Notes under the pieces: generated by a model
Told to the model about the DNA's origin: nothing
What the model saw: the letters and a program-made list of their open reading frames with translations, nothing else
Database searches by the model: none
From: a virus
Strand: one strand, 5' to 3'
Length of the DNA stretch: 29,930 nucleotides
IMG/VR virus record: IMGVR_UViG_3300010396_000403
Location: 1-29,930 of that record
Translations under genes and position numbers: made by a program
Shown here: piece after piece, positions 3,633 through 28,321 of the stretch
How the letters are laid out: each line of letters starts with the position of its first letter
How positions within the stretch are numbered: the stretch's first letter is position 1

Positions 3633-3937
3633 GGACTGACGAACAGCGCAAATGGATGCGGGAGTGGAAGCGTGCCCACAGGCCAAAGACGCGAAAGAGG
3701 AATCATCTCAAAGAGAGGGCCGGTTCCAAAGCGTGGAAGGTTGCAAACCGAGAGAAAGTACTGGCCCAAAACCTGCTCAACAGGGCTATCCGGTTTGGAA
3801 GGATTGTTCGTCCGACTCTTTGCGAGAAGTGCAGAGCGGATGGAAAGACTGAAGGGCATCACACAGATTACACGAAACCACTGGAGGTTGCATGGCTCTG
3901 TCGAAAGTGTCACCGCGTCGAACATCGCATGGATTAG
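3629..3937 (+). CDS. HNH-type zinc-binding protein (102 aa)
   Basis: A TTG start overlaps the preceding stop (TTGA) and follows GGAGGATGGAG. The basic N-terminal half (KRAHRPKTRKRNHLKERAG) is likely to contact nucleic acid. The C-terminal half has C65-x2-C68, HH at 77-78 in GHHTDYTKPLEVAWLC, then C91-x2-C94-H95. This is the phage HNH-like fold with two CxxC knuckles. Small free-standing HNH proteins can nick DNA or act in packaging. Whether this one is catalytic is uncertain. Its last 46 bases overlap the Bet gene. Confidence 0.75.
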   Translation: MRTDEQRKWMREWKRAHRPKTRKRNHLKERAGSKAWKVANREKVLAQNLLNRAIRFGRIVRPTLCEKCRADGKTEGHHTDYTKPLEVAWLCRKCHRVEHRMD

Positions 3938-6148: not shown

Positions 6149-6858
6149 CGCATGGGAGTTTATTCAGTGGAATCGGAGGGTTTGACCTTGGCTTCGAACG
6201 AGCGGGAATCGAGACAGTCTGGCAGGTCGAAATCGACCCTTACTGCCGGCGAGTTCTTGCACGCCATTTCCCATCTGCCATCCGCTACGACGACGTGCGA
6301 ACAGTCGGAAATCACAATCTCGCCCCCGTTGACATCATCAGCGGAGGATTCCCCTGTCAGGACATCAGCAACGCCGGAGACAGAGCAGGCATCGACGGCG
6401 AAAAATCAGGTCTTTGGCGAGAGATGTATCGAGTCTTTTGCGAGCTACGACCGCGCTACATCGCAGTGGAAAACGTCTCAGCATTGCTTATTCGGGGGTT
6501 TGAGCGAGTTCTCGGGGACTTGGCCAGCGCAGGGTATGACGCTCAATGGCGAAGCGTATGGGCTGCCAATTTCGGGGCTTTGCATCGCAGGGAACGAGTC
6601 TTCATTGTTGCCAACAATGCGCGCGAGTATGTCCCTAGTTGGGGCACCGATCTGGAAACGGACGCCAAACAGAGGGAACTTAGAGGAGATACTTGCCGAA
6701 TTGTACCCTCACCTTATTGGGCAACTACTGAATGTCCAAGCTGGGGAGTGGCTGATGGGCTTCCCGATCGGGTGGACCGCCTTAGAGGACTTGGCAACGC
6801 CATTGTCCCGCAAATCGCAGAGTGGATCGGAAGGCGAATAGTGGAGGCCGGCGCGTGA
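6139..6858 (+). CDS. dcm: DNA (cytosine-5) methyltransferase
   Basis: This 239-residue product transfers a methyl group from S-adenosylmethionine to C5 of cytosine in DNA. Motif I is LFSGIGGFDLGFERAG (8-23), motif II contains EID (31-33), and motif IV is SGGFPCQDISNAG with the catalytic Cys73. Motif VI is ENVSAL (111-116), motif VIII is HRRERVFIVA (149-158), and motif X is GLGNAIVPQIAEW (217-229). Only about 45 residues lie between motifs VIII and IX/X, so the target-recognition part is very short. I set the start at ATG 6139, four residues before the conserved THGSLFSG. It probably protects phage DNA from host restriction. The target site cannot be read from the sequence. Another long frame overlaps most of it. 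Confidence 0.93.
   Translation: MRLTHGSLFSGIGGFDLGFERAGIETVWQVEIDPYCRRVLARHFPSAIRYDDVRTVGNHNLAPVDIISGGFPCQDISNAGDRAGIDGEKSGLWREMYRVFCELRPRYIAVENVSALLIRGFERVLGDLASAGYDAQWRSVWAANFGALHRRERVFIVANNAREYVPSWGTDLETDAKQRELRGDTCRIVPSPYWATTECPSWGVADGLPDRVDRLRGLGNAIVPQIAEWIGRRIVEAGA
6152..6841 (+). CDS. Overlapping (+1 frame) protein inside the methyltransferase gene
   Basis: A 229-codon frame lies wholly within the methyltransferase gene, shifted by +1. Its product has TSSAEDSPVRTSATPE over methyltransferase motif IV, then SFASYDRATSQWKTSQHCLF, FSGTWPAQGMTLNGEAYGLP, SSLLPTMRAS, a NLEEILAELYP helix and EWLMGFPIGWTALEDL over motif X. I remember phage hypothetical proteins with the same string of motifs (TSSA-DSP-RTSA, TWP-GM-NG, SLLPT, EWLMGFP-GWT). 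That suggests a true overprinted gene rather than chance, but this recollection is unchecked. The ATG stands four bases after the stop of the 20-codon gene in the same frame, so re-initiation is plausible. There is no clear ribosome site. The function is unknown. Confidence 0.5.
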   Translation: MGVYSVESEGLTLASNERESRQSGRSKSTLTAGEFLHAISHLPSATTTCEQSEITISPPLTSSAEDSPVRTSATPETEQASTAKNQVFGERCIESFASYDRATSQWKTSQHCLFGGLSEFSGTWPAQGMTLNGEAYGLPISGLCIAGNESSLLPTMRASMSLVGAPIWKRTPNRGNLEEILAELYPHLIGQLLNVQAGEWLMGFPIGWTALEDLATPLSRKSQSGSEGE

Positions 6859-7218: not shown

Positions 7219-8145
7219 TTGCCGAAGAGAATTATTGATGGCGAAGCAATGTGGGGGAGTGACAAGTTAGCGGCGTGCGAAGTCTGGGCGCGGCGCGAAT
7301 ACGCTTGGCTGTATCCCTTGGCCGATGCGAACGGCTGCTTCGAACTAACGAGCTTGAGGGTTATCTGGGGCAAGGTGGCAGCGAATCGGCCAGATTTGTC
7401 TTTGCAGAGACTCCAGGAGGTGTTTGAGCAGTTCACCCGTCATGGTTTGCTTTTCACCTGGGTCACAAACGGCAAACGCTACGGGCATTGGACGAGGAGC
7501 GAAGGTCGGTTACCACCGAGATCGGAACGAAGGCGGCATAAATCTCTCGCACCCGATATTCCGGTAGGCGAACTGGCAAAGTACCTCAACTCCTTTGGAA
7601 TCAAAGAGGTCAGCAATGTTCTCGACCTAGGTCGAGACTTGGTTTTGGTTAGGGATTTGGATTTGGTTGAGGAAAGGCAAGAAGCGGCTTCGCCGCCTGG
7701 CGTGCCTGTGGCGCTATGGCTTTCTTTCGTGGAAGTGCGGAGAAGCGTCCGAAAACCCCTAACCGGAACTGCCAGCGAGTTGATTTGGCGCGAACTGGCG
7801 AGCCTCAAAGAGCGAGGGCACGATCCGATCGACGTTCTCGAACAATCCATCCGCAACAGTTGGCCGGATGTTTATCCCGTGAAGGAGAAGCAAAATGGCG
7901 CACGACAGCCAGGTAAAGCAGAACAGCGACGAGACAAGGGCCAAGAAATCAGCCAAGACATCTTTGGACGTCCTAGCGGATTGGTGGGCGCTCTCCATTC
8001 AGGTTTGGAGGGACGATCCGTCGCGCGAATTGGCGCTGGTCTACCGGGAGACGTTACAGGACATTCCGCCGTTGGTGCTCCACAAGGCGTTCCTGCGCGT
8101 CGCCAAGACTTGCAAGTTCCGGCCAAACCCAGCGGAGATTCGTGA
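7219..8145 (+). CDS. Phage replication protein (initiator / DnaT-like)
   Basis: TTG 7219 begins MPKRIIDGEAMWGSDKLAAC, a start I know from phage replication proteins, followed by a winged-helix-like domain (ANGCFELTSLRVIWGKVAAN, then LQEVFEQFTRHGLLFTW; residues ~1-105). A variable linker leads to LWLSFVEVRRSVRKPLTGTA and LKERGHDPIDVLEQSIRNSW with PDVYP (about 165-220). That second domain normally ends phage O/DnaT-type proteins, which load host replication proteins at the origin. Here the frame runs on for ~85 residues that overlap the next gene and look unlike a conserved domain. A stop may have been lost near 7890, or the overlap may be genuine. Confidence 0.75.
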   Translation: MPKRIIDGEAMWGSDKLAACEVWARREYAWLYPLADANGCFELTSLRVIWGKVAANRPDLSLQRLQEVFEQFTRHGLLFTWVTNGKRYGHWTRSEGRLPPRSERRRHKSLAPDIPVGELAKYLNSFGIKEVSNVLDLGRDLVLVRDLDLVEERQEAASPPGVPVALWLSFVEVRRSVRKPLTGTASELIWRELASLKERGHDPIDVLEQSIRNSWPDVYPVKEKQNGARQPGKAEQRRDKGQEISQDIFGRPSGLVGALHSGLEGRSVARIGAGLPGDVTGHSAVGAPQGVPARRQDLQVPAKPSGDS

Positions 8146-10259: not shown

Positions 10260-10472
10260 ATGAGACGCAAGTGGACGCCCCAATTTGTAGCTAAATTTCC
10301 TTGCAAGCGTTGCTTCGATGAAGGGCTTGAGACTTGCTGCTGCGCGTGTCCGCCGACTCATCCAGCCGGGCGATTGTTGCGCGAGGAGCCGGACGTAGCA
10401 GAGGAGATTCAGCGGCACACGAAGCATCAGAGATTGCGCGAGGGATTCGCGTTGATGCGGGAGGAGCGGTAG
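10260..10472 (+). CDS. Small Cys-rich protein (70 aa)
   Basis: ATG 10260 follows GGAGGCGGG. The product has CKRCFDEGLETCCCACPPTH (residues 15-34), with six cysteines in twenty residues plus a histidine. A charged helical tail follows (EEIQRHTKHQRLREGFALMR). The cysteine cluster suggests a zinc or disulfide-bonded knot. It lies directly before rusA and is probably co-translated with it. The function is unknown. Confidence 0.6.
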   Translation: MRRKWTPQFVAKFPCKRCFDEGLETCCCACPPTHPAGRLLREEPDVAEEIQRHTKHQRLREGFALMREER

Positions 10473-10838
10473 ATGGGGGCTGAACTGCGGATTATGGTGC
10501 CGTTGGTGCCGCCGAGCGTCAACATGTATGTCAGGCACACGCGAAGTGGGAGGCATTATGTCACAGCCGAAGGTCGATCTTTCAAAGAGGCTGTCGGTTT
10601 ACTTTATCGACGGGCGGGACGCTTGGATACACGACGGTACGAGCTGGAAGCTACTGTGTACCTCGGCAGAGCCCAGCGTGGTGACGGAGATAACTTTTGG
10701 AAGGTTATTGCGGATGGACTTGTGGAGGCTGGGGCAATTCATTCGGATGCGGCTGTCACTGATTGGATTATGCATGTCCGGCGTGATCGAGCGAATCCGC
10801 GGACGGAAATCATAGTGCGGGCGGCACAGCAGGAATAG
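10473..10838 (+). CDS. rusA: RusA-family Holliday junction resolvase
   Basis: RusA dimers cut four-way DNA junctions symmetrically. The 121-residue product has the family's usual length and order: VPLVPPSVNMYVRHT near the start, then RGDGDNFWKVIADGLVEAGA and IHSDAAVTDW. The acidic and basic residues D71, D73, K77 and D92 sit at the spacing of the catalytic D70, D72, K76 and D91 of E. coli RusA, so the active site looks intact. ATG 10473 follows immediately after the previous stop, with GGGAGGAGCGG upstream. It probably resolves recombination or replication intermediates made by Bet before packaging. Confidence 0.93.
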   Translation: MGAELRIMVPLVPPSVNMYVRHTRSGRHYVTAEGRSFKEAVGLLYRRAGRLDTRRYELEATVYLGRAQRGDGDNFWKVIADGLVEAGAIHSDAAVTDWIMHVRRDRANPRTEIIVRAAQQE

Positions 10839-10870
10839 AGGAGATGGCGAAATGAGCGGTGACGAGGCTT

Positions 10871-10978
10871 ATGTACGAGTTCCAGGAGCATGAAATGTGT
10901 CCACTTTGCCGCGAAATAGCCAAGAACCGCGCGCAGTCGAAGCGCAAGCGGGAGAGGAAGCACCGCAAAGCCGCATGA
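10871..10978 (+). CDS. Small basic protein with CxxC (35 aa)
   Basis: ATG 10871 has only a weak site upstream. The product is MYEFQEHEMCPLCREIAKNR followed by a run of Lys and Arg (SKRKRERKHRKAA). One CPLC knuckle plus a strongly basic tail suggests nucleic-acid binding. Its TGA overlaps the next ATG (ATGA), which supports translation. Confidence 0.45.
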   Translation: MYEFQEHEMCPLCREIAKNRAQSKRKRERKHRKAA

Positions 10979-12549: not shown

Positions 12550-12719
12550 AGCTCTCACATGCGGAAGTGGCGTATGAGCACCCGGCGAAGGGGATGAGCC
12601 ATTGCAGCGAGTGCGTGCACTACCGGGATGGGTATCCGCCGGGGATGTATCCGCATTGTGTGATTGTGAAGGATCCGATACGGCCGGAGGATTGGTGCTC
12701 GAAGTTCAAGAAAGCCTAG
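12546..12719 (+). CDS. Four-cysteine, HiPIP-like small protein (57 aa)
   Basis: GTG 12546 overlaps the HNH stop (GTGA). The product contains C20-x2-C23-x14-C38-x12-C51 in HCSECVHYRDGYPPGMYPHC, VIVKDPIRPEDWCSKF. The pattern C-x2-C, then C-x-x-V, I-x-P and WC-x-(F/W) is that of high-potential iron-sulfur proteins, and of small phage proteins sharing this layout. It may hold a 4Fe-4S cluster or zinc. The usual phage role is not known. Confidence 0.65.
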   Translation: MKLSHAEVAYEHPAKGMSHCSECVHYRDGYPPGMYPHCVIVKDPIRPEDWCSKFKKA

Positions 12720-13279
12720 TGTTGGATGAGTTCGTAGAGGCGTTTCCGCAGCTGCGCGGCACGGCGCGGTGGGAGGGGCTGTCTTACCTCGTAGGGGAGT
12801 TGCTGGAGCGCCCAAGGCCGGTGATTCTGGAGACAGGGACTTGCCGGAAGCCGGGAGATTGGACTGGCGATGGCTGCGCTACTTCGGTATGGAATTGGGT
12901 GGTGGAGCGCAAGAATGGCATGGCGATCAGCGTGGACGTGGATGCGAGTTCCTGCGATGTAGCAAGGCGGATTTGCCCCAAGGTGCATGTGGTTTGCGCG
13001 GATTCTCCGTCTTTCCTTCGTGGCTTTATGCCGTTTGCCCTCGATCTGCTGTATCTCGATTCGCGGGATTGGGGACCGGGCGCCGAACTCGAAGCCTGTA
13101 TGCACCAGGTAGCGGAGCTGAGCGCGATCTGGGAGCGGTTGCCCAGCGGCTGCCTGATCGCCAGCGACGATTCGCATTCGAAGGACCTGGGTAAGCCGGC
13201 CCTGACCCGGCGCCTGCTGTCCATCCTCGGCATCGAGCCTGTTTTGGATTCATATATCGTCGTGTGGAAAAAGCCGTGA
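12719..13279 (+). CDS. Class I SAM-dependent methyltransferase (Methyltransf_24-like)
   Basis: The start is GTG 12719 (or TTG 12722), overlapping the previous TAG by one base; longer in-frame starts would run through the previous gene. Motifs: PVILETGTCRKPGDWTGDGC (35-53) is the SAM-binding first strand and loop. SVDVD (71-75) is the acidic second strand. VHVVCADSPSFL is followed by LDLLYLDSRDW (D114), and a late LIASDDSHSKD follows. This set matches small O-methyltransferase-like or glycan-modifying proteins rather than DNA methyltransferases. The following TPR/glycosyltransferase-like gene suggests the two modify a sugar or a virion protein. The substrate is unknown. Confidence 0.75.
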   Translation: MLDEFVEAFPQLRGTARWEGLSYLVGELLERPRPVILETGTCRKPGDWTGDGCATSVWNWVVERKNGMAISVDVDASSCDVARRICPKVHVVCADSPSFLRGFMPFALDLLYLDSRDWGPGAELEACMHQVAELSAIWERLPSGCLIASDDSHSKDLGKPALTRRLLSILGIEPVLDSYIVVWKKP

Positions 13280-13482: not shown

Positions 13483-14813
13483 TGATGATCCTGGTTCCAA
13501 AGTCCGAAGCGGACGGCGAGAGCGTTCTCTCGGTTGCCGAAGCCAAGAAACAGCTTCCCAAATGGGAGATGGTCAACAAGCTGCGCCCCAACGCCGCGAA
13601 CCTAATGAATCTCGCGGCCATCTATTACACGCTGGGCCGCGCGGAAGAGGCTATGGTTGCCGCGACGAACCTAGTTTCCGCCCTCGAAGATGCCGGGGAT
13701 GTGCCTGCGAACATCATGGCAGGCGTGTATCAGAATCGCGGGATGATGTACCGCGGCTTTGGGCGGTTTGCCGAAGCACAATGTGACATTTTCCGGGCTT
13801 GGGAACTCGAGAAGAATTCCGACTACATCGGAATGGCGCAAGCCGAGGAGCATCTCCGCAATGGAAACTGGTCCGAAGGCTGGAAGTGGCACAACCGCGC
13901 AAGAGGAACGTGCTCAGGTGCGGCTCTCGCCTGTGGACTTCCTGAAGAATGTAAGTTCTGGGACGGAAAAGATACGCCCGAACATCTACTCGTCATCAAC
14001 GAAGGCGGTGCTGGAGACCGCATTAACTACACTCGCTACCTTCCGTATCTCACCGCTCGGAAAATTTCTTGGAGTTTCTTCTGCTTCGACGAACTCAAAC
14101 CCTTCTACGATCGTCTCCCCTGGATTGGCCCCGAACGAACCATAGGCGAGAGCGATAAAAAGGAATTCTGCCCTCCGCCGTCTCACTGGACGACCACCTT
14201 TTCGCTCGCAGGCCCGCTCGGCATCGATCCTCGCGCCATCCCTGATTTCCCCACGCCTTATACGGCCCCGCCGCACACCGGACGCATCGAACGTATCGAT
14301 TCCCGCCCCCTAGTCGGCCTCTGCTGGAACGCCAATGAACTTCACCAGGGCGGGTTGAAGGTGCGATCGCTCACCGAAGGCCAGGCCATGCGCCTCGTTT
14401 GCATGACAGCCGACAAAATCGCCTGGGTCAACGTCCAGCACGATCACAAAATGCCGTTCCCAGTCACAAATATCCCGTTCAAAACCTGGGAAGACACCGC
14501 AACGCTTCTGCATCACCTCGATGCGCTCGTTACCGTCGATTGCGGGACGCTCTGGCTCAGTCTGGGCATGAAAAAAGAGACCGCGGTCGTCCTGACAGCC
14601 TCGGAAGACTGGAAATTCCATCATAATTGGTCGCCATGCGCGAAACTGTACCACAATGGCCCTTCGACGCAGCTTTTCGACGCCGAACATGCGCTCGATT
14701 TGCTCATCACCGACATTCGGGCCGGAATTTGGCCCTCAAGTTTGAAGCAGCAACTCGCTCCTTCAGAAAGCACCACCACCACTCGCCCCGACATGGCGCT
14801 CATCAGCGTTTAA
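13482..14813 (+). CDS. TPR protein with GT9/GT-B-like glycosyltransferase domain (443 aa)
   Basis: ATG 13482 overlaps the previous TGA. Residues ~35-140 hold TPR-like helical repeats (NAANLMNLAAIYYTLGRAEE, VYQNRGMMYRGFGRFAEAQ). From ~165 a glycosyltransferase fold like GT9/heptosyltransferase or TPR-GT proteins follows. LLVINEGGAGDRINYTRYLP (169-188) is the glycine loop. RPLVGLCWNANELHQGG (275-291) starts the second Rossmann half. TWEDTATLLHHLDALVTVDC and GTLWLSLGMK (335-364) match the 'D-A-AHLAGALG' donor-binding segment, although the usual His is replaced here. It may glycosylate a virion or host surface protein. The enzyme activity is inferred from fold motifs only. Confidence 0.7.
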   Translation: MMILVPKSEADGESVLSVAEAKKQLPKWEMVNKLRPNAANLMNLAAIYYTLGRAEEAMVAATNLVSALEDAGDVPANIMAGVYQNRGMMYRGFGRFAEAQCDIFRAWELEKNSDYIGMAQAEEHLRNGNWSEGWKWHNRARGTCSGAALACGLPEECKFWDGKDTPEHLLVINEGGAGDRINYTRYLPYLTARKISWSFFCFDELKPFYDRLPWIGPERTIGESDKKEFCPPPSHWTTTFSLAGPLGIDPRAIPDFPTPYTAPPHTGRIERIDSRPLVGLCWNANELHQGGLKVRSLTEGQAMRLVCMTADKIAWVNVQHDHKMPFPVTNIPFKTWEDTATLLHHLDALVTVDCGTLWLSLGMKKETAVVLTASEDWKFHHNWSPCAKLYHNGPSTQLFDAEHALDLLITDIRAGIWPSSLKQQLAPSESTTTTRPDMALISV

Positions 14814-15410: not shown

Positions 15411-15599
15411 ATGCCTAAATTCCTTGAGGACGCTCTTAAAAAAGAGTATCCGGGCAATCCGTCCGCCGTGTATGGCACGATGAACAAAATCGGCGCCATG
15501 CACGGCAACAAGGAAACCGCGAAGGGCCGCGAAATGGAAGCGAAACACGAATCCCACCGCGCCGCCTACGTCAGCCGTATGAAAGCGAGGAAGAAGTAA
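15411..15599 (+). CDS. Conserved small basic phage protein (62 aa)
   Basis: The product is MPKFLEDALKKEYPGNPSAV, YGTMNKIGAMHGNKETAKGR, then a KHESHRAAYVSRMKARKK end. I recognise the 'AxLKKEYP...VYGTLNKIG...G-K-T-KG-E' pattern as a common small protein in phage head/packaging blocks. It is very basic, so DNA or head-shell binding is likely. Its stop overlaps the next ATG (TAATG). Confidence 0.7.
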   Translation: MPKFLEDALKKEYPGNPSAVYGTMNKIGAMHGNKETAKGREMEAKHESHRAAYVSRMKARKK

Positions 15600-15883
15600 T
15601 GGATACCGCAATGATGGGCCTGTCGCACAAGCCCAAGATGCCCAAGGGCATGAAGGATATGCGCAAGCACGGCATCGCGCGCACGATGATCGAGCATCAT
15701 CACGACGGCTCGCATCAGATCACGCACGAGCACATGAAGCCGGGAACGATGCCGACCAAACATGGCGCGAAGGACCTCGAAGAACTCCACGACCACATGG
15801 AGCAGCATCTTGGCGGGATGCCGACCGACGAAGAAATGAACGAAGGCGAAGAGACCGCGACTCCGCCGATGATGAGCAAATAA
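15599..15883 (+). CDS. His/Met-rich small protein (94 aa)
   Basis: The ATG at 15599 overlaps the previous TAA. The product has an unusual content of His and Met: MRKHGIARTMIEHHHDGSHQ, ITHEHMKPGTMPTKHGAKDL, EELHDHMEQHLGGMP, then an acidic end. There are about fourteen histidines in 94 residues, in clusters that could bind metal. I know short phage proteins with 'IEHHDDGSH-VRH' segments near the terminase or head genes, so it is likely a real family. Its role is unknown. Confidence 0.65.
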   Translation: MDTAMMGLSHKPKMPKGMKDMRKHGIARTMIEHHHDGSHQITHEHMKPGTMPTKHGAKDLEELHDHMEQHLGGMPTDEEMNEGEETATPPMMSK

Positions 15884-15884
15884 C

Positions 15885-16079
15885 ATGGCTGGCGAATATC
15901 GCAAGGCGATGGTATCGCGCCACAAAAAGAAAATCGGCCACATTGAAAAAGGCGCCTTCCACAAATGGCTGGGCAAGCCGGAATCTGAGCCGATCACGGA
16001 AGCTGATATTCAAAAAGGACTTAACGCCGGCGGTCACGCGGCTAAGATGGCAAATTTTGCGAGGAATTTCGCCCATTAA
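15885..16079 (+). CDS. Small basic phage protein upstream of TerL (64 aa)
   Basis: ATG 15885 follows the previous stop closely. The product is MAGEYRKAMVSRHKKKIGHI, EKGAFHKWLGKPESEPITEA, DIQKGLNAGGHAAKMANFAR. The 'KGAFHKWLGKPE-EPITEADI-KG' stretch is familiar from phage head-region genes and is mostly helical. Its position just before TerL would allow a small-terminase or accessory role, but the fold does not show a helix-turn-helix. Its end overlaps the TerL start. Confidence 0.65.
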   Translation: MAGEYRKAMVSRHKKKIGHIEKGAFHKWLGKPESEPITEADIQKGLNAGGHAAKMANFARNFAH

Positions 16080-17844
16080 GGTTTCCGAGCGGTTCACGCA
16101 GGCGATCGAAGCGTATGTCGCCAGAATCGGCGGCAAGAAGGAATATCACGCCCGCCGCCGCCAGTGCCAGACCGATCTAAAGTTTCTCTCGACAGAAATA
16201 TTTCACCGGGATTTTTTCGAGGCCACGCATCGGCCCGTCATCGACTTCTTTCTGAAGAAAACGCCATTCGCTCCGGCTTTCCAGCAAGGCTCGACATACA
16301 CGCTGGCGGAATTTCAGGCGGCAATCGCGAATCTAGAAACATTGGAACGGCGCAAGGGGATTCTGCTCTACCCGCGCGGCAACTTCAAATCCAGTTTTGA
16401 TGCCGATGACATCTGCCAATACATTATCTGCTATCCCGACATCCGCATCCTCATCATGGTCGGCGAGTCGAGCCTCGGTGAAGCGTTCGTACCTGAAATC
16501 AAGGAACGTTTCGTCCTCCAAGAGAAGGCTATTCCGACCGAGTTTCAGCTTCTTTTTCCTGAGTTCGTGATCGATATCGAAGCGGACAAGGATCGCGGCG
16601 GCGCTCAGGAATACTGGTGTCCGGCGAGACGCATCAAGCAGGTGGCGCCAACCCTCGGCTCCATCTCCATCCTCGGATCATCGTCCGGCCATCACTGCGA
16701 TGTATTCAAGTGCGATGACGTGGTTACGGATACCACTCCAATCGAGACTTCCATGTCGCGGAACAAGCTGGTGCGCAAGTTTGTCACGACGGCGAACCTG
16801 CTCGATCCGCACGGCGTTCTAGAACTTATCGGCACGCGCTATCACGAGGAGGACTTGTACGACCATGTGCGCACGATCCTTAAGAACTGCCGGTATCTTT
16901 GTGGTTCCTCGTGGACAGCCCTTCCGCACGCGCGTCACAAGAAACTTAAAGAGCTTACTGAAGGCGATGTGGTGCTCCTGTTTCCCGAGCGACAGGGCTT
17001 CGCGTTCCTTCGAGAAAAGCTTTTGCTCGATGAGGACACCTTCTGCCTCCAGCAACTCAATGATCCCAAAAAAGTCGGGCTCAGCGTCAAATTCAGAATC
17101 GAAGACCTCCGCGCAGCAACTACGCGCATCCCGCAGAACCCATCGTTCCGAAGGTACAACTTCTGGGATGTAGCGACGACGAACTCCGAAGGCTCGGACT
17201 ACACCGCTGGCGGCTGCCTGCTGGTCGATACCACCAAATGGATTGCATATCTCCATCATTTCATCATGGAGAAATACACACCCAGCGAGTTGGCCTATCA
17301 GATCGCGAAGATGGCCAAGGAAACCAATCCAGAGCGCGTGATGTTCGAGCGCTACACCGCGACAAACGCCTGCTGGCTTGAGCAGGAAGTGCGCAAGATA
17401 GGAGTCAGCTGGGGCTATGAAATCCCTATCCATACCATCAAAGTCGATAAAACCAAAGGCGCGAAAGGCCCGCGTATCTGCGGACTCGAACCGCTCATCC
17501 GAGGCGGGCGACTCTACTTCTCCAACCTCTTACCCAACCTCGAGTCCTTGTTCAAGCAGTTTACCGATTTTACGGGTGTGCCGCATCCGAAACGGAATGA
17601 CGATGGGCCTGACATGCTCAGTTTCCTACGACTCGTTATGCCGATGACCGGCATCGACATGCCGAAAGCGCAAGAGCCGAGCATAAGTTTCGGCCTGCAA
17701 ACCATCGACAACTCGAAAGACAACGCCGCATGGATGGCCGCGCACGGCAAAGACTCTGCCGTCCGTTCGTTCCTTCGTCCGCCCGCGCCACCGGTTCAGG
17801 TCGCGCCCAGTACGTCTGCACCAGGATATTTCCCCGGCCAATAA
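16057..17844 (+). CDS. terL: Terminase large subunit (ATPase and nuclease)
   Basis: TerL drives DNA into the capsid and cuts it. Numbering from TTG 16057, the ATPase has YPRGNFKSS (105-113) as a variant Walker A and VFKCDDVVTD (D220/D221) as Walker B, followed by ELIGTRYHEEDLY (coupling region). The nuclease has FWDVATTNSEGSDYTAGG (369-386, D371), the acidic strand MFERYTATNA (E431) and NDDGPDMLSF (D519), so all three acidic groups are present. The start is uncertain. TTG 16057 has a weak ribosome site, and ATT 16075 has GAGGAA at ideal spacing. An ATG at 15943 would read through most of the preceding gene. The length of ~590 residues is normal. Confidence 0.92.
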   Translation: MRGISPIKVSERFTQAIEAYVARIGGKKEYHARRRQCQTDLKFLSTEIFHRDFFEATHRPVIDFFLKKTPFAPAFQQGSTYTLAEFQAAIANLETLERRKGILLYPRGNFKSSFDADDICQYIICYPDIRILIMVGESSLGEAFVPEIKERFVLQEKAIPTEFQLLFPEFVIDIEADKDRGGAQEYWCPARRIKQVAPTLGSISILGSSSGHHCDVFKCDDVVTDTTPIETSMSRNKLVRKFVTTANLLDPHGVLELIGTRYHEEDLYDHVRTILKNCRYLCGSSWTALPHARHKKLKELTEGDVVLLFPERQGFAFLREKLLLDEDTFCLQQLNDPKKVGLSVKFRIEDLRAATTRIPQNPSFRRYNFWDVATTNSEGSDYTAGGCLLVDTTKWIAYLHHFIMEKYTPSELAYQIAKMAKETNPERVMFERYTATNACWLEQEVRKIGVSWGYEIPIHTIKVDKTKGAKGPRICGLEPLIRGGRLYFSNLLPNLESLFKQFTDFTGVPHPKRNDDGPDMLSFLRLVMPMTGIDMPKAQEPSISFGLQTIDNSKDNAAWMAAHGKDSAVRSFLRPPAPPVQVAPSTSAPGYFPGQ

Positions 17845-19386
17845 ATGCCTGAAGCAACGCTGATTGATAAATTCAAACTGTCCGGCCTCGATGCTCCGGT
17901 CGAGCGCGAACAAATCTCCATCGATCCTGCTGAGGATGCGCTCGCCAAGCGCAAGTACGACGACGAAGCCGCGCTCCAGATTCTCAAGCAAGACCTCGAA
18001 TACGCCGAAGGCGACAAGCTCAAGCTCGAATACAACCAGATGTGGACGATGAATGACGAGCTGCTTCAGTCGCCGTGGCGCAACGGCTACTATTTCAATC
18101 CCGCACGCGCCAACGTTCCGCGCTACACGCTCTCTAACATCATTGATGTCGTCGTGACAAAGATCATGGGTGGGCTGTTCTTCGAGGAAACGCCATTCAT
18201 GCTGATGGCGAATCCAAAGCTCGACCAAAAGATGATGTGGGCGAAGGAAGCTGTCGCCTCGACGCAGCTTCGCGAGATGGAATTCTCGAACGAATGCGAA
18301 AAGGGCTGGTATCAATGCGCTCTACAAGGCACGCAAATCTACAAATACGGCTGGTTGGATGACACGAAGAAAGTCCCGGTATTCACAGCCGAAGAGGAAC
18401 CGCAAAAGTTTTCGACGCCGCTGGGCGATAAGCAGCTCGATACGCCGCAATCGGACAATTTCAAGCTGGAATGGGAAAGCAAGGACATTCACCGCCCGTG
18501 GCTCAAGTGGCGCGACATCCGCTATCTGGCCATCGCTCCGACATGGAAGGAAGGCGACATCCGTAAGGCTCCGTGGGTGTGCGATTCGGAGTACGTGACC
18601 CTCGACGAGCTTGACCAGCTGCGTGATGACCCAGATTACGATATTCCCTCGAAGGAAGAATTGGAGTCGCTATTCTTTCCGCCGAATGACCAGCAATCAC
18701 CGCCGGGAGATGTGACCGAGACTCGCCCCACGAACATGCGGGCATGGCTGACGCATTCCGAAGGGCGCGAAGTCAACGACTCCGCCGATCCCTACGCGCG
18801 CAAGATTCGTTTCGTCGAGCGCTGGGACAAATACAAGGGCACGACGGCGCTCCAGAACAACAAAGGCTACCTGCTCATCAAGAACAAGAACCACGACTTC
18901 GGCGCCGTACCGTACCTGTCTTCGACGTGGCGGCCGCTGCCATCTTCGGGTTACGGCCAGGGACTCGGCCAGCTTATCGGCCCGGACCAGCAGATTGAAA
19001 AGGGAACGCTCTGCGCGTATCTCGACATTCTTTCGTTCATTGCGCGTCCCAGCTACATCCGGCAGAAAACGCTCAACACGCCGTCGCAGGACATCAAGAT
19101 TGATCTTGGCTCCATCATTTCCGTCGAAGGACCTGTCAATGAAGCATGGAAAATGCTCGAACAACCAAAAGTCGATGCGTCCCTTGTCGCTGCAATTGAC
19201 GCTGCCAAAAACTCCGCAGCCAACACTTCAGGCGCAAACGAATTGGTCGGTCAAGGCAATACGGTTGGGGCCGGACGCGGCACTGGAATGCGGTCAGGTA
19301 GCGGGGCGCAGCTTGTTGGTCAGGCGCAGGCGGGACGGCTCGATGGTCCTTTGGAGCGTTTCATAAGGCAAGTCTTCGTTCCGTGA
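17845..19386 (+). CDS. Portal protein, part before an in-frame UGA (513 aa)
   Basis: ATG 17845 follows TerL's TAA directly. The order TerL-portal and the motifs fit a portal: long N-terminal helix, NGYYFNPARANVPRYTLSN, MWAKEAVASTQLREMEFSNE, YLSSTWRPLPSSGYGQGLG with QLIGPDQQIEKGTLCAYLD, then ANTSGANELV and the Gly-rich tunnel segment. Twelve such subunits form the DNA entry ring. This frame stops at TGA 19384 after RFIRQVFVP, where portals of this type normally continue with a tryptophan. The downstream frame carries the missing C-terminal part, so as written this product would lack ~185 residues. Confidence 0.9.
   Translation: MPEATLIDKFKLSGLDAPVEREQISIDPAEDALAKRKYDDEAALQILKQDLEYAEGDKLKLEYNQMWTMNDELLQSPWRNGYYFNPARANVPRYTLSNIIDVVVTKIMGGLFFEETPFMLMANPKLDQKMMWAKEAVASTQLREMEFSNECEKGWYQCALQGTQIYKYGWLDDTKKVPVFTAEEEPQKFSTPLGDKQLDTPQSDNFKLEWESKDIHRPWLKWRDIRYLAIAPTWKEGDIRKAPWVCDSEYVTLDELDQLRDDPDYDIPSKEELESLFFPPNDQQSPPGDVTETRPTNMRAWLTHSEGREVNDSADPYARKIRFVERWDKYKGTTALQNNKGYLLIKNKNHDFGAVPYLSSTWRPLPSSGYGQGLGQLIGPDQQIEKGTLCAYLDILSFIARPSYIRQKTLNTPSQDIKIDLGSIISVEGPVNEAWKMLEQPKVDASLVAAIDAAKNSAANTSGANELVGQGNTVGAGRGTGMRSGSGAQLVGQAQAGRLDGPLERFIRQVFVP
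19384..19386 (+). other. In-frame UGA inside the portal gene
   Basis: The codon order is GTT CCG TGA CTG TAT ATC ATG, all in one frame, and both sides encode portal. UGA followed by C is a context known for leaky termination. A single base change from TGG (Trp) would produce it. UGA is used as a normal stop in most other genes here, so a genome-wide UGA=Trp code is ruled out. Confidence 0.8.
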
Positions 19387-19395
19387 CTGTATATC

Positions 19396-19944
19396 ATGGA
19401 CGAGATGAATGCGAAGCGACTGCCCGCGCGTTCGCTCCGCGAAATCCTCGAAGATGACCAAGAGCACGACTATACCAATTTCAATCACATCACCTGGCGC
19501 AACGCAAAGGTGGAGTATCAGATTCTCGCCGGAGCGCATCTTGGCCCGCGCAAGCAGATGGCGGAGTTCATGCCGTTCCTGCAACAACTGGTGAACACGC
19601 CGCCGATGATGAAGGCCGCGCAGCAGGCAGGGCTCATCTTCGACTTCGATGTGTTCATTAATTCATGGTCGCGCCTCGCAGGCTTCCCGCAGCAGCAATC
19701 GTTCTTCCGCAAAATGACCGACGACGAGAAGCGAAAGGCGGAAGCTAATTCGCCCGCTGCGGTTCAACAGATGAAGGGCCAGCAGGCGCAGCAGCAACTC
19801 GCGCAAAAGGGCGAGCAGGACGAGAACAAGATCGCCGCTCAGTCGCAGGGCCGCGCAGCTGAGAAAGTCACTCAGCTGATGCTTGAGAAAACGATGATGC
19901 CTGAAGGCGAGCATCCCACCATCGGAGCAGGATTCGGCGGATGA
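19396..19944 (+). CDS. Portal protein, C-terminal part after the in-frame UGA (182 aa)
   Basis: The region is in the same frame as the portal gene. From ATG 19396 it reads MDEMNAKRLPARSLREILED, VEYQILAGAHLGPRKQMAEF, MPFLQQLVNTPPMMKAAQQA, then a Gln/Lys-rich tail. I recall portals with '(F/I)xP-W-(L)-x-MDELN...REILG...YEVLAGAHL-A-K-MA' running without a break, so this is the portal's crown/C-terminal end. ATG 19396 has no Shine-Dalgarno site, which argues against an independent gene. Readthrough would give a 699-residue product. If not read through, this is a pseudogene fragment or reached by weak re-initiation. Confidence 0.75.
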   Translation: MDEMNAKRLPARSLREILEDDQEHDYTNFNHITWRNAKVEYQILAGAHLGPRKQMAEFMPFLQQLVNTPPMMKAAQQAGLIFDFDVFINSWSRLAGFPQQQSFFRKMTDDEKRKAEANSPAAVQQMKGQQAQQQLAQKGEQDENKIAAQSQGRAAEKVTQLMLEKTMMPEGEHPTIGAGFGG

Positions 19945-20267
19945 GATACGAAATCAAGCTCAGCGAGCAGGAAGAATTGTACCTCCAGCAGATCGCCATG
20001 CATCCCGGCTATCCCGTTCTGCTAAAGCTGCTCCAAATGGAAAAATGGGATGCGGTTGCAGAAGCGATGGCCTGCAAGGATTTAAACATCGAGAAGCGCG
20101 CGCTGGCTCTTACCGATGCGCAGCGCACCGATGTTGTCGTGGGCAATATCACGCAACGGCTCGAGCGTTTCCGCGAAAGCTCCATGCCGTCGATCCAGCC
20201 CGAACCTGAGAATGCGCAACACGACCCTCTTTTAGCAGCACTGTTCAGTGAAAGGAACACACACTAA
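19941..20267 (+). CDS. Small hypothetical head-region protein (108 aa)
   Basis: The ATG overlaps the portal stop (ATGA), and its TAA overlaps the next ATG (TAATG). The product is helical and soluble: MRYEIKLSEQEELYLQQIAM, VLLKLLQMEKWDAVAEAMAC, DAQRTDVVVGNITQRLERFR, then an acidic Pro-rich tail. Its position between portal and scaffold-like gene suggests a head-assembly or portal-associated role. I know no named family. Confidence 0.65.
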   Translation: MRYEIKLSEQEELYLQQIAMHPGYPVLLKLLQMEKWDAVAEAMACKDLNIEKRALALTDAQRTDVVVGNITQRLERFRESSMPSIQPEPENAQHDPLLAALFSERNTH

Positions 20268-21115
20268 TGGCTACTCAGCCGGTAGTGACCGACACTCAAC
20301 CCGAAGTAGACCAGGAAACAGGGAAATTCGTTTATTCCTATCAGCCGAGGGATTCCGACCGCCAGTTCATCGGCAAACCGTATCGTTTTCTCTATACCGA
20401 CCATCAAGACCTCGTGCGGCAAATCACTGAGGCCAAGGAAAACGCCGATCGCTATATCCACGAAGTAAAGACTGGGAAACGGCAAGTTAGTGGTGAACTG
20501 GCTGCGCCTCGCCCGACGTTCCAGCCCGCGCCCGAATCCGCCGAAGAGGCGGAACGTCAAGAACGAGAAAGATTCAGACAGAATGCTGAAAAAGAATTCG
20601 GCGCTCCATTGGACAAAGTGCGCGAGCGATTGCGCATTGCAGGCGATCTCGAAGAAGGAATTACCGCTCAGCGTTGGGCGATGGAGAACGAAGCCAACGG
20701 CTATTACATCTGTCCGCACAACGCGCGCGAAATGATGAAGTATCTTGATGGCGAGAATCCGCAAGGCCAAAGACTGGCCCGCATTCCAGCCAACTACGAT
20801 TTAGCTTTTGAAGCCGTGAAGGACAAACTCATTGCCCGTCCGGCGCAAGAGCAAGCACCACCTGCGGACTCCACGCAGCAGCAACCACCGTCCACTCGGA
20901 CAGAAACACCCAGATCAACAGGCGTTATTCCCGGCCAGTTCCAAGGCACTCGCCCCGGAACGCAAGCTGAGAGGCAGCCGTTGACGCGGGACAGGTTCCG
21001 CCAGATCGACAAAATGAGTCGCGACCAATTCATGGCACTCAAGCGCAGTAACCCTACTGAGTATTGGGCGTTCGTGAAAATGCAGGAAGCGGCGAAGGCG
21101 CAACCGCAGCAATAA
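20267..21115 (+). CDS. Putative scaffold protein (282 aa)
   Basis: The gene lies just before the capsid gene and its composition is scaffold-like: no cysteine cluster, highly charged helices, and a proline/glutamine-rich disordered segment (residues ~195-245). An N-terminal helical part (QFIGKPYRFLYTDHQDLVRQ, ITEAKENADRYIHEVKTG) leads to EEAERQERERFRQNAEKEFG, a segment CPHNAREMMKYLDGENP, and a C-terminal helix (RFRQIDKMSRDQFMALKRSN). Scaffolds direct capsid assembly and then leave. The role is inferred from position and composition. Confidence 0.6.
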   Translation: MATQPVVTDTQPEVDQETGKFVYSYQPRDSDRQFIGKPYRFLYTDHQDLVRQITEAKENADRYIHEVKTGKRQVSGELAAPRPTFQPAPESAEEAERQERERFRQNAEKEFGAPLDKVRERLRIAGDLEEGITAQRWAMENEANGYYICPHNAREMMKYLDGENPQGQRLARIPANYDLAFEAVKDKLIARPAQEQAPPADSTQQQPPSTRTETPRSTGVIPGQFQGTRPGTQAERQPLTRDRFRQIDKMSRDQFMALKRSNPTEYWAFVKMQEAAKAQPQQ

Positions 21116-22188: not shown

Positions 22189-22902
22189 ATGGCCGACGAT
22201 CTCGACATCCTCAAAACCTCAGCTTCTGCCGATATGGGCGGGGGTGTCGAGATTCCGGCTGCTCACAATGAAAAAACCTACGACCTCATTAAGACTGCCA
22301 AGCAAGAACTAGCCGATTGGCACGTTCAATGGGGGAAAAAGCCGGAGAAGGATTCGCGCGCTGATGAGAAATTGGCAGCCCTGCGCGAAGATACCGCTGA
22401 ACGCCTGAAAGCCTACATTCCCGCAGCGTTGGGAGATGAAAAGCATCGCATTCGCAACATCATGTCGCTGCCGGAATTCTGCCGGAAGCTGAACAACATC
22501 CTAGGCCCTGCCGCCGATCTTGGTTCCCGCATTTTCATCAACACGCCTCCGCCCGTTCCCGGCTTCGATAACGAGAAGATGAAGGGCCTGTTCATCAAAA
22601 TGCGCGGTATGGATATGTTCACGTATCACGAAGATTTACCGCCGGGCTGGAAAAAGATTTGCACGGTGCAGAATCCCTACATGAGCGAGTGGGGAATTAT
22701 GAATCGCGACTCTCACGGCGCATTCAGAAGCTGGAAGTTCATCGGCTGGCGCGGCCAAGTACTTTTGCGACTGATTCTGGCCGGAGCGATTACCGAAGAG
22801 GAAGCGCACGCGGAATTCGGCGTCCCGCAGGGTGTTGAAGTAGACCGCGAATATCTAAGAATTCTGACTAACTGGAGAAAAAATGGCCAAAGACCAAACT
22901 AA
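22189..22902 (+). CDS. Virion-region hypothetical protein (237 aa)
   Basis: I chose ATG 22189, just after the capsid stop; an in-frame start at 22159 would overlap the capsid. The product is mixed: helical KTYDLIKTAKQELADWHVQW, EDTAERLKAYIPAALGDEKH, RIRNIMSLPEFCRKLNNILG, then GFDNEKMKGLFIKMRGMDMF and a last helical part ending GVEVDREYLRILTNWRKNGQ. It could be a head completion or accessory head protein. I recognise no family. Confidence 0.65.
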   Translation: MADDLDILKTSASADMGGGVEIPAAHNEKTYDLIKTAKQELADWHVQWGKKPEKDSRADEKLAALREDTAERLKAYIPAALGDEKHRIRNIMSLPEFCRKLNNILGPAADLGSRIFINTPPPVPGFDNEKMKGLFIKMRGMDMFTYHEDLPPGWKKICTVQNPYMSEWGIMNRDSHGAFRSWKFIGWRGQVLLRLILAGAITEEEAHAEFGVPQGVEVDREYLRILTNWRKNGQRPN

Positions 22903-23380
22903 TCAGCCGGGCGAGATGACCATCGAAGAACAACTCAAGCGAATCGAGTTGGAAGAACGCCAGCAAGCATTGGAATCCAGAAAATTACAAGATGAAGTAG
23001 CGCGCATTCAGCTTGAAGCACTCAAGCGAGAAGCTGAAACAAGGAAGACGAATAAAGCTCGGGGAGTTGCCGATGCGCAAAAGGCAATCGAGGATCGGGA
23101 CGCATTGCGGGCGCGGTGCAATCACCATTTAGGGGGACAGGGCGCTATGGGCATAGTCAGCGGTCAGGGTGATGAGGAGCGGCCCACGACCATCGGAGCG
23201 CAAGTGTTCTTGGATGACACTATCCGCTTAAAATGCAATCGCTGCGGCGATTCTTGCTTATCTACGGACCCTGATCGAGCCAAGTGGGCGAAATGGGTTG
23301 GACTTTGGAAACATAGCTTCACAAAAACAATGATGGTCGTGGGCGGAATCAAGACAACGAAAGTCGCTCAGGTAGCCTAA
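22883..23380 (+). CDS. Coiled-coil protein with zinc-ribbon end (165 aa)
   Basis: ATG 22883 follows GGAGAAAA and overlaps the previous gene by 20 bases. Residues ~12-75 form a charged coiled coil (EEQLKRIELEERQQALESRK). The C-terminal part has C79-x-H81-H82, then KCNRCGDSC (C118, C121, C125), a likely zinc site, in a compact domain. It sits among head/neck genes, so a structural or assembly role is likely. The same architecture (coil plus ribbon) is seen in phage assembly chaperones, but I cannot assign it. Confidence 0.65.
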   Translation: MAKDQTNQPGEMTIEEQLKRIELEERQQALESRKLQDEVARIQLEALKREAETRKTNKARGVADAQKAIEDRDALRARCNHHLGGQGAMGIVSGQGDEERPTTIGAQVFLDDTIRLKCNRCGDSCLSTDPDRAKWAKWVGLWKHSFTKTMMVVGGIKTTKVAQVA

Positions 23381-23381
23381 C

Positions 23382-24440
23382 GTGCCCATCACTTACACGG
23401 GACAAAGCATCTACGATTCACTGCGAGTGATGCCGGATTTGGCTCCGGTATTCAACTCGCAGGTTTCGGGCTTCTCGCTTGAGCCCATGCTGACCATCCT
23501 CAACGAGACGATGGCCTACATGCTGGGCCCTAATTTCCCGTGGAAGTTCAATGAAATTGAAGTCGCTCCGTTTCTCATTAACTCGTATCAGCAGGACTAC
23601 GCCACCAACAATACAAATATCGGCTATCTGACTGCTGGCGACTGCCTCGACGTAAACAACACGGTCACATCGAAGGCGTTGCCCCAGGTGCGCGTCGTCC
23701 GTGACTTGCCGCGCATGACGACTTGGCCGTCACTGCCGCCGCAATTCTACGGCCCGATGGTGTTCTCGATTTGCTGGCGCTACAACAGCCAGCTTTACTA
23801 CGGTACATGGGGTGCGGCCAACGCTGGCAGCGGCACGCGAGGCAATAATCCTGTCGCGCATTCCGTCTATACCAATCCGCTGGGAGTCGGCACGAACATG
23901 CCGTTCAATCCCATCACACAGATCAAAGATGCGAATGGGAATCTGCTCGTCCTCACGGGATTCGGCACGGAAGGAACAACCGCTCCCGTGGCTCCTGCTA
24001 ATTCTGTTGCTGGCACGATTGCGACTCCGGGGTTAGGCGCGACGACGCAATGGACGGTAGTCGATCCTCTCGCGCAAGGCTTCCGCATCTCGCCTCCGCC
24101 ATCACAGACAGGCGTTGTCTGGCAGTTCAATCTGCGCGCACAGGCGATGCCGCCGCCACCGTTCACCAGCCTCAATACTTTGCTCGCGCCGATCACGGAT
24201 GATTACATTCCCTACTTCCGGCAGGGCTGCATCACCACGACCTATCGTTATTCTCCCGAAGAAAAGGTGCGGCAGAAGTACGACAAGGAACTACAAATTT
24301 GGGAAGCGCGGCTTAATCAGGGCAAGATGCAGGGCGACCGTGAGCCTGAGAGCTATTCGTTCATTCCAACCGGTGGCATCGTCGCCGGGCCAAGCACGGG
24401 CATGATTACGCCAGGCAATCCGTGGGGTTTCCCGACGTGA
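23382..24440 (+). CDS. Putative neck or tail-tubular protein A-like (352 aa)
   Basis: GTG 23382 follows the previous stop by one base. The N-terminus is helical (YDSLRVMPDLAPVFNSQVSG, LEPMLTILNETMAYMLG). A beta-rich middle with Gly/Thr/Asn loops (residues ~130-260) follows, then YFRQGCITTTYRYSPEEKVR with QKYDKELQIWEARLNQGKMQ. The following gene, with a fold of similar style, overlaps it (GTGA). This pair after the capsid matches the place of T7-type tail-tube/adaptor proteins. The name is by position and composition. Confidence 0.6.
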   Translation: MPITYTGQSIYDSLRVMPDLAPVFNSQVSGFSLEPMLTILNETMAYMLGPNFPWKFNEIEVAPFLINSYQQDYATNNTNIGYLTAGDCLDVNNTVTSKALPQVRVVRDLPRMTTWPSLPPQFYGPMVFSICWRYNSQLYYGTWGAANAGSGTRGNNPVAHSVYTNPLGVGTNMPFNPITQIKDANGNLLVLTGFGTEGTTAPVAPANSVAGTIATPGLGATTQWTVVDPLAQGFRISPPPSQTGVVWQFNLRAQAMPPPPFTSLNTLLAPITDDYIPYFRQGCITTTYRYSPEEKVRQKYDKELQIWEARLNQGKMQGDREPESYSFIPTGGIVAGPSTGMITPGNPWGFPT

Positions 24441-25150: not shown

Positions 25151-28100
25151 GTGCCAGGTGCCCTTGCCCAAGCGGGCGCGCAACCAATCAAGCAGCCGAA
25201 GTGGACGCCGATCCACATGGGCCGCGCGCAGACCGGGCTTATCACCAACCGCGCAGCGCTGCATGATTTCGCAATCGGACTGTACGGAAAGTTCTATGGC
25301 GCCGGTGCGGATGCTCTGCTCGATGGCAGCAACATTGAAATCTCGCCGCAACAGACATGGAAGCATCGTCCCGGTCATTCGGCATTTTGCACGCTGCCAT
25401 CGACCTGCCTGACGGTTTATCCGTTCTTCAATGCGGATGGAACGATCACGCTGTATATGGACACCACGACGGGGATTTACACAAATCCGTCGAGTCCCAC
25501 ATTGTTCGCGTCAAAGGCCAGCGGCGCTCTCCAGACTTCCTTTTTGCAGATTGGCGAAACACTCTATCTGGCCGATGGCGTCGAGAATCGCAAAGTCATT
25601 GGCGGGAAAATTTACGCATGGGCAATCAACGGACCGGCCACAGCTCCGACCGTTGTTATCGATAGCGCGCCAACCGGCAGCACGCCTTGGACGGCGAGCA
25701 CCGTTTATTCCACGATGGGCTTGCTGATCGACTCGAATACGAACGTGCAGCAACTCATCAGCGTCAATGCCGATGGCACGAATCTTCCACCGGCAACAAT
25801 CGGAACATCGGGAGTAGGCGAGCCAGTCTGGAACAATACCAGCGGCGGAACGGTTACGGAAGGCAGCGGCTTGCAGTGGACCTGCTACGGCCCTGTGGGT
25901 TTGTGGGTTGCAAATTCTACCTATACGGATGCTTCCGGCCCCGGTTCGCTGGGCGCTCCAGCAATGATTTTCGACACGATCTCCGGCAATGTGTTCATCG
26001 CCAACGGAACGGGAAGCAGCGGAACGTCGCGGCCTAATTTTTCCGCAGTTCCTTTGCTCGGCTCGACCCATGCGGATGGTGCAATTCACTGGTTCAATGT
26101 CGGCCCGCCAAAGACTTGGACGCCGAGCCACGCTTATGCTCAGTGGGGCGCAAGTTTCGGCGCAAATGACAACAACGCATTTGTGACTGAACCGACTACG
26201 CCGCAAGCCGCTGGATATGGAACGGCATCCCAGCAGACGGTATTTCTGCAAGTGACTGCGACAGCGGCGGGAACTTCGGATTCGAGCCATACAGGGCCGC
26301 AATGGGCAAGTTCGCAAGCCAATCCGGTGACGCGCGATGGTCAGCTGAATTATCAATTCCTCGGCTCGGCCACGCGCGCGAATTCCCACAGCTACACGGC
26401 TTGGCAGGCAGGCACGCCATTTTTCAACGTCATCAGCGATGGAACGAATTTTCAGGTCTGCCTCGTCAGCGGCATCTCGGCAGGCTCGGCACCAACATTC
26501 AGCGCGGCATATGGCGGCGTCACCGTGGATGGTACGGTGCAATGGGTTTGCGTAGGCCAGACGCGCACATGGGCGGCAAGTACAAAATGGTATCTCCCGG
26601 CAGTGGGCTTCTCTCCGCCGGTTTCCAACGTGAATCCTTATGGCGGCGCGGCGATCATCGACGCTAACAACAACGTCGAATCCGTCACGAATAGCGGAAA
26701 ATCAGGTTCGACGGCGCCAAGCTGGGCAACCACGGTCGGAGCAACGACTTCGGATGGCACGATTACCTGGACGCTCACCGCGCTTGCGGCCACTTTCAAA
26801 GGGAGCACACCGCTGGCCTTCACCAAAGGCTACGGCTACGTCTACGCATGGAAGTCGCGCAGTGCGACGGATTTCTATGTGACGAATGCGCCAAACGGAC
26901 AATCGGGCGCGCTGGGCCCTCCAACCGGCTCAGGTTCTGGAGGTATTACAACGGCCTCGCCTGCGTTTGAGATGCCGACTGGATCGAACGCCGGAGCGGT
27001 CATGCAGGTGTCAGGCTCTTGGCCCACGGACACGCAATACGACACCGTGGTTGTCTATCGCTCGACGGATGGCTTCCAGACCGGCCCATATCTCGAACTC
27101 ACGGAAATTGCCGCGCCCGCTCCCGTGAATGGCGCCTATCAGGGTACATGGACATTCTTTGATTCGGTGCCGGATACAAATCTCAACGAACTCATCGAAG
27201 CGGATACATCGGGCGAGAATGCGCCGCCGCCAACAGGACTCCTGAATCTAGAGCTCCACATGAATCGCATCTGGGGCAACGTTGGGAATGTCGTGTTTGC
27301 TTCCAGCGGGCCGGACATTCCAGTCGGAAACGGGAATGGCTACGAAGGCTGGAACGCTTCCAACAGCTTTCCACTGCAATCGCCGGTCAACAAACACATT
27401 GCCACGCAAAGCGGGCTGCTGGCATTTACGACTTCGGATGTGTACATCATCGCCGGTGGGCCATCGATCCCGCAATTCTTCCCGTGGCGCATTGCGCGCG
27501 GAATTGGGCTTCTTTCAACCAACGCCATTCAGATTGTGGGCGGTGAAATCTACATGGTCACAGCCGACCAGCGATTCATCGCCTTCCAGCCGGGCGTAGG
27601 ACATTCGGAACCGGGTTTCCCGATCGCAGATCAAATCGCCAACTTCAATCCAGCAACCGCATACGTGACTGAGCACGCTGTCGGCGTCGATCCATCGGCA
27701 ATGTTTGTCTGCAACGGCTCTACAGGATGGTTTCGGCTTGTTCCTCACGCTACGCCGGGCTTCATCAGCCCCGATCAGCCTGTCTGGTCGCCATTCGCGA
27801 CGATTACGGGAGGTTGCACGGGCGCTCAATCGGTGACGACTTCGGCGGGCGTTCGCTCATTGCTCGTGTTTCAATCCGGCGGCGTAATTCTGAAGCGCGA
27901 TCTCACAACGGCACAGGACAATGGCTCGAACTTCAGCGGAAATTATACGGTTGGCTCGATTGTCGTAACCCATCCTAGCCAATTGGCTGAATTGGGCTTT
28001 ATGACATTCGAGTTTTCAAAGGCGGGAAGCCCAACGCTGAGCTATTTGCCCAATGAAATCAGCACAACAGGCGGAGCGGCATTCCAGCAGTTCACATCTT

Positions 28101-28321
28101 CGGTCTTCGATCCGCCATTGCTCTACGGAACGACCGTAACGCCGTCGTCTTATAACCCGAATCGTTATTGGTTCAAGCAGACAACCAACACAAACCAGCT
28201 TCCTCCGGCGCTTTGGTGCCGTCACCTGCAAATCAAAGTGACTTATCCATCGGAAAACGCTTTTCACGAACTCTATAGCTTCGCGATCGTCGGCGCACTC
28301 TACGCCGAGGCGGGAATGTGA
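25151..28321 (+). CDS. Large tail protein with five repeat modules and propeller-like C-terminus (1056 aa)
   Basis: GTG 25151 starts directly after the previous stop. The N-terminal ~160 residues are beta-rich (KWTPIHMGRAQTGLITNRAA). From ~180 to ~542 come five degenerate modules of 55-80 residues. They share W-x3-T-x-Y, I-D-x-N-x-V, G-x-S-G-x3-P-x-W and T-x-DG-x3-W. The C-terminal half has segments typical of podovirus tail proteins (IATQSGLLAFTTSDVYIIAG, GLLSTNAIQIVGGEIYMVTA, ATITGG). I assign it as a tail-tubular B/propeller-type structural protein. The modules may bind carbohydrate. It is the largest gene here. Confidence 0.72.
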   Translation: MPGALAQAGAQPIKQPKWTPIHMGRAQTGLITNRAALHDFAIGLYGKFYGAGADALLDGSNIEISPQQTWKHRPGHSAFCTLPSTCLTVYPFFNADGTITLYMDTTTGIYTNPSSPTLFASKASGALQTSFLQIGETLYLADGVENRKVIGGKIYAWAINGPATAPTVVIDSAPTGSTPWTASTVYSTMGLLIDSNTNVQQLISVNADGTNLPPATIGTSGVGEPVWNNTSGGTVTEGSGLQWTCYGPVGLWVANSTYTDASGPGSLGAPAMIFDTISGNVFIANGTGSSGTSRPNFSAVPLLGSTHADGAIHWFNVGPPKTWTPSHAYAQWGASFGANDNNAFVTEPTTPQAAGYGTASQQTVFLQVTATAAGTSDSSHTGPQWASSQANPVTRDGQLNYQFLGSATRANSHSYTAWQAGTPFFNVISDGTNFQVCLVSGISAGSAPTFSAAYGGVTVDGTVQWVCVGQTRTWAASTKWYLPAVGFSPPVSNVNPYGGAAIIDANNNVESVTNSGKSGSTAPSWATTVGATTSDGTITWTLTALAATFKGSTPLAFTKGYGYVYAWKSRSATDFYVTNAPNGQSGALGPPTGSGSGGITTASPAFEMPTGSNAGAVMQVSGSWPTDTQYDTVVVYRSTDGFQTGPYLELTEIAAPAPVNGAYQGTWTFFDSVPDTNLNELIEADTSGENAPPPTGLLNLELHMNRIWGNVGNVVFASSGPDIPVGNGNGYEGWNASNSFPLQSPVNKHIATQSGLLAFTTSDVYIIAGGPSIPQFFPWRIARGIGLLSTNAIQIVGGEIYMVTADQRFIAFQPGVGHSEPGFPIADQIANFNPATAYVTEHAVGVDPSAMFVCNGSTGWFRLVPHATPGFISPDQPVWSPFATITGGCTGAQSVTTSAGVRSLLVFQSGGVILKRDLTTAQDNGSNFSGNYTVGSIVVTHPSQLAELGFMTFEFSKAGSPTLSYLPNEISTTGGAAFQQFTSSVFDPPLLYGTTVTPSSYNPNRYWFKQTTNTNQLPPALWCRHLQIKVTYPSENAFHELYSFAIVGALYAEAGM
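25688..26777 (+). repeat. Five degenerate protein-level repeat modules in the large tail protein
   Basis: In the product these are roughly residues 180-247, 252-318, 323-405, 411-469 and 474-542. Each starts with an aromatic residue and a short T/S-x-Y motif and ends with DG/EG-x3-W. DNA identity between modules is low, so they are old duplications. They resemble small beta-sandwich or carbohydrate-binding (W-x3-T-x-Y) modules. Confidence 0.55.

Follow-up and report, generated by a model that had tools for sequence, protein, structure and literature searches.

An unshared in-frame TGA in the N4-type portal gene of a metagenomic virus record probably reflects an error or a very recent mutation

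RESULTS

The portal gene is a single frame broken once. The portal gene of the virus record IMGVR_UViG_3300010396_000403 is an ordinary single gene of 699 codons (positions 17845 to 19944, plus strand, identified by its ORF, profile, and fold), interrupted at codon 514 by one in-frame TGA (positions 19384 to 19386, plus strand). Judged from comparative sequence data, this TGA stands alone, differs by a single base from a tryptophan codon that hardly varies among relatives, and is found only in one assembled record. Very probably, the metagenome consensus has taken up an error or a minority allele here, or else the phage has acquired a genuine nonsense mutation very recently; on either view the TGA would be without function. 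All coordinates refer to the window, the whole 29,930-nucleotide stretch of this IMG/VR record that was analyzed.

The upstream ORF (17845 to 19386) starts with ATG, encodes 513 amino acids, and terminates at the TGA. Beyond it the frame stays open until a TGA at 19942 to 19944, adding 185 codons (19387 to 19941, plus strand) whose constraint is as strong as that of the 5' part. The ORFs therefore bear out the observation in the earlier note that an in-frame TGA splits a portal frame of 699 joined residues. The read-through protein matched the portal/head-tail adaptor family phrog_332 over residues 95 to 668 (E = 1e-12), a second such family, phrog_1216, and, by profile, the solved portal Gp39. 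It also aligned over its full length, at 94% identity, with the portal of the nearest relative, labelled L001 for the portal locus (a contig of 42,453 bases) and G001 for the shared genes. The normal portal content claimed for the joined protein is thus upheld by the two profiles and the full-length match. An intact gene for the terminase large subunit (15943 to 17844, plus strand; phrog_38, E = 3e-44) lies directly upstream, its TAA abutting the portal ATG. Downstream, the final portal stop overlaps the start of a small conserved gene (19941 to 20267, plus strand), which is intact and 96% identical in G001, and the relative has the same arrangement. The portal profile, the fold described below, and the adjacent large terminase identify a podovirus portal of the N4 type.

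Codon 514 is TGG in nearly all relatives. In L001, codon 514 is TGG and the portal ORF is unbroken. We pooled and de-duplicated the IMG/VR portal relatives, counting each distinct 123-nt stretch around the site as one haplotype. TGG was present in 111 of 112 distinct haplotypes and TTC in the remaining one, and none of these aligned relatives carried an internal stop. Apparent in-frame stops in two loci, L131 and L135, were rejected; both precede the point where portal coding begins, within the first positions of the alignment. Comparison of this codon across related phages, which the earlier note had proposed as a check, thus leaves the TGA unique to the record.

Searches built on TGG are blind to TGA. 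Three were able to detect it: a scan with TGR at the codon, a TGA-only scan, and a second profile pattern (QA[QN]A[GS]RLD). The tight-motif IMG/VR scan allowing either TGG or TGA (F-V/I-P-TGR-LYIMDE) returned 14 contigs, all 14 with TGG. With a looser motif, the TGA-only scan of IMG/VR matched two contigs, neither of them a portal; the TGG version of that motif matched 105 stretches, and among the 80 listed all but one encode a recognizable portal relative. The profile-guided search kept 80 loci, and the 85 loci checked at the codon comprised 84 with TGG and 1 with TTC. Phenylalanine replaces tryptophan at the codon in only two of the relatives seen, L054:2501-4525 (IMGVR_UViG_3300050011_000064) and L025:2073-4202 (Tunturiibacter phage Tunturi_3). 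The latter, at 27% identity, was the sole portal match among named phages. An exact 23-mer taken from the mosaic tract described below found no further record of the same species in IMG/VR. The portal was not found in the bacterial genomes searched, so no prophage copy helps.

Both sides of the stop are under constraint. Relative to L001, dN/dS was 0.017 before the TGA (codons 1 to 398) and 0.025 after it (codons 515 to 699). Only three amino-acid differences from L001 follow the TGA, one of which looks derived in L001. By a simple Poisson estimate, the probability of three or fewer changes is about 0.002 if the 3' part had been unselected during 10% of the window's branch. The dN/dS after the TGA reflects history shared with a relative that has TGG and gives no date for the stop. 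Given the strong 3' constraint, the stop must have arisen very recently, be missing from the real population, or be read through, three possibilities that this test alone does not separate.

The stop falls inside a predicted core helix. A portal model was built from 65 sequences, with the Tunturi_3 row left out (mean pLDDT of 67); an earlier fold from 11 sequences was too poor for use (pLDDT of 43). The closest solved folds were N4-type portals (E of about 1e-20). In the model, W514 lies inside a helix spanning residues 487 to 525, in a block (residues 501 to 560) with pLDDT of about 83 to 93. It is preceded by a low-confidence stretch, residues 461 to 498, whose position may match that of the portal tunnel loop. 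A chain ending at residue 513 is predicted to lose the end of this helix plus 186 residues. Because the truncation cuts a core helix of the N4-type fold, the 513-residue chain is unlikely to work as an alternative subunit.

The stop lies at the edge of a mosaic tract. Positions 19046 to 19393 (plus strand) form a diverged tract of roughly 350 bp with 62 to 78% identity to L001, compared with about 88 to 95% in the flanks; the relative has a three-residue insertion in this region. The right edge of the tract comes within 10 bases of the TGA. The differences end with the codons CCG, TGA, CTG, and TAT; identity, about 89% ahead of the tract, recovers to about 92% just past the TGA. A search for a donor gave a best match of only 74%, and either lineage could be the recombinant. 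At such an edge, an assembler could go astray when strains are mixed. Similar tracts occur in the window at about 12900 to 13100, 13900 to 14100, 15500 to 16050, 20300 to 20800, and 22900 to 23350. Natural recombination is therefore common in this DNA, and the position of the TGA at a tract edge is only suggestive.

Further mosaic blocks were seen at 20267 to 21115 and 22883 to 23380. The gene at 20267 and the 165-residue gene at 22883 are only about 60 to 70% identical to the nearest relative, with neighbors at 96 to 99% in protein sequence. Within an early region that is mostly unalignable, 435 bases (10451 to 10885) are 99.5% identical to G001, which points either to exchange in the recent past or to strong conservation of a 121-residue gene (10473 to 10838). 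The window further encodes a RecT-like single-strand annealing protein (3892 to 4677), which could promote mosaicism, a DNA methyltransferase-like protein (6152 to 6841), and an O-like replication initiation protein (7219 to 8145).

DISCUSSION

Translation through or around the stop. A UGA followed by C is a weak termination context. Near-cognate Trp-tRNA might decode UGA-C in part, yielding portals of 513 and 699 residues by programmed or tolerated readthrough, and the insertion of Trp would restore the family residue at codon 514. The downstream constraint is also predicted by such readthrough, and misincorporation of Trp at UGA has a precedent in the A1 protein of phage Q-beta (PMC8067240). 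Nevertheless, we consider this reading improbable. The stop, which a readthrough gene would be expected to conserve, is conserved in 0 of 112 distinct relatives. The C is indeed present, as the earlier note had pointed out, but it opens the leucine codon that the family conserves (CTG follows the site in 31 of 85 relatives) and so is inherited. The same note had called for RNA structure prediction over 19387 to 19470; folding there was ordinary (z = -1.30, with 19 of 200 shuffles folding at least as well), as it was in the other 3' flank calculation (z = -0.36), and no Rfam family came near its gathering score near the site. Folding and Rfam thus give no sign of the stimulatory 3' RNA element expected of a readthrough gene. 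No tRNA gene, suppressor or other, is present in the window, which is a genome fragment, or in G001. A ring of 12 subunits would be poorly supplied by full-length product at a few percent of the normal level, and subunits cut short by the stop would miss part of the core helix. By title and abstract, the papers that a literature search on portal readthrough returned dealt with other subjects. A recent portal UGA that is suppressed efficiently in the natural host, with truncated and full-length subunits coexisting in the infected cell, is likewise improbable. Were readthrough true, a ring of fixed copy number would contain subunits of mixed length, which would be a rarity; comparison with relatives speaks against it.

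A split portal, in which ribosomes terminating at 19386 would start again at the ATG at 19396 and the fragments would co-assemble, has very little to recommend it. That ATG begins 9 bases past the stop, near enough for coupled re-initiation, but it encodes the internal methionine M518, nearly invariant among relatives. The stretch GGCAAGTCTTCGTTCCGTGACTGTATATC-ATG lacks a suitably spaced, purine-rich Shine-Dalgarno, which agrees with the earlier statement that the ATG lacks a ribosome site. The modeled break would fall midway in a continuous helix, and none of the 112 relatives is split. An altered code in which the phage reads UGA as tryptophan is the least credible reading, even though the UGA occupies a tryptophan position. 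The 15 genes that the window and the nearest relative have in common contain 107 TGG codons and 1 in-frame TGA. UGA ends four of these genes, including the portal, and UAA and UAG end the rest. It terminates the gene at 12602 to 13279, where G001 has UAG at the homologous place, and that at 25151 to 28321, where G001 has UAA; the gene at 23382 to 24440 in the window also ends in UGA. Because UGA ends shared genes where the relative uses UAG or UAA, it is a stop here, which refutes the altered code. The earlier note had excluded genome-wide recoding on the grounds that UGA ends most other genes. That count was wrong, but UGA is a working terminator and the exclusion holds, through homologous gene ends and not through a UGA majority.

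Error or very recent mutation. Of the three options originally offered, programmed readthrough with short and long portals is not supported: the TGA occurs in one record only, 111 of 112 relatives have TGG, no stimulatory structure was found, and the C is inherited. A loss-of-function mutation and a sequencing error both fit everything. We slightly prefer the view that an error or a minority allele entered the metagenome consensus. A very recent real nonsense mutation, which would leave the phage portal-defective or persisting in a mixed population, is a serious but somewhat weaker candidate. If a single base in these genes is changed at random, a stop results in about 3.7% of cases. For the 15 kb of shared genes, an assumed error frequency of 1 in 10,000 then predicts about 0.06 nonsense errors (15,000 x 0.0001 x 0.037). 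An event of this kind is unusual for a given contig and ordinary across a scan of many, and this contig was picked from such a scan. Against an error, the other genes shared with G001 are all open, with no frameshift or stop, and the lack of any other sign of error in them indicates that the error rate is not high. The coincidence of the TGA with a tract edge may likewise be chance combined with natural recombination. In either case, the matter is mainly one of annotation, as gene callers will cut this portal into two genes.

Comparison with known systems. In profile and fold, the protein resembles the portals of N4-type and related podoviruses (the N4 portal, 9lc1 and 9yf5; Gp39, 9d83; phrog_332 and phrog_1216). 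It differs in the internal stop of the present copy, whereas all compared relatives are uninterrupted. In Q-beta, the complete coat protein normally ends at UGA, and a minor, longer form, A1, is made by Trp misincorporation at this UGA about 1 time in 15 (PMC8067240). The likeness is that of a phage structural gene with a UGA where tryptophan could enter, but the portal UGA lies inside a conserved fold and is conserved in no relative, and readthrough here is only hypothetical. Gut phages that recode stop codons, crAss-like and others, also carry in-frame stops within conserved genes; in them a stop is reassigned across many genes, with code 15 (TAG to Gln) established by metaproteomics (PMC9523058). 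The window, by comparison, has one in-frame stop and keeps UGA as a terminator. Metagenome-assembled virus contigs with base errors or point nonsense mutations present the same picture of a single unshared stop in an otherwise conserved ORF, and no difference from them was found.
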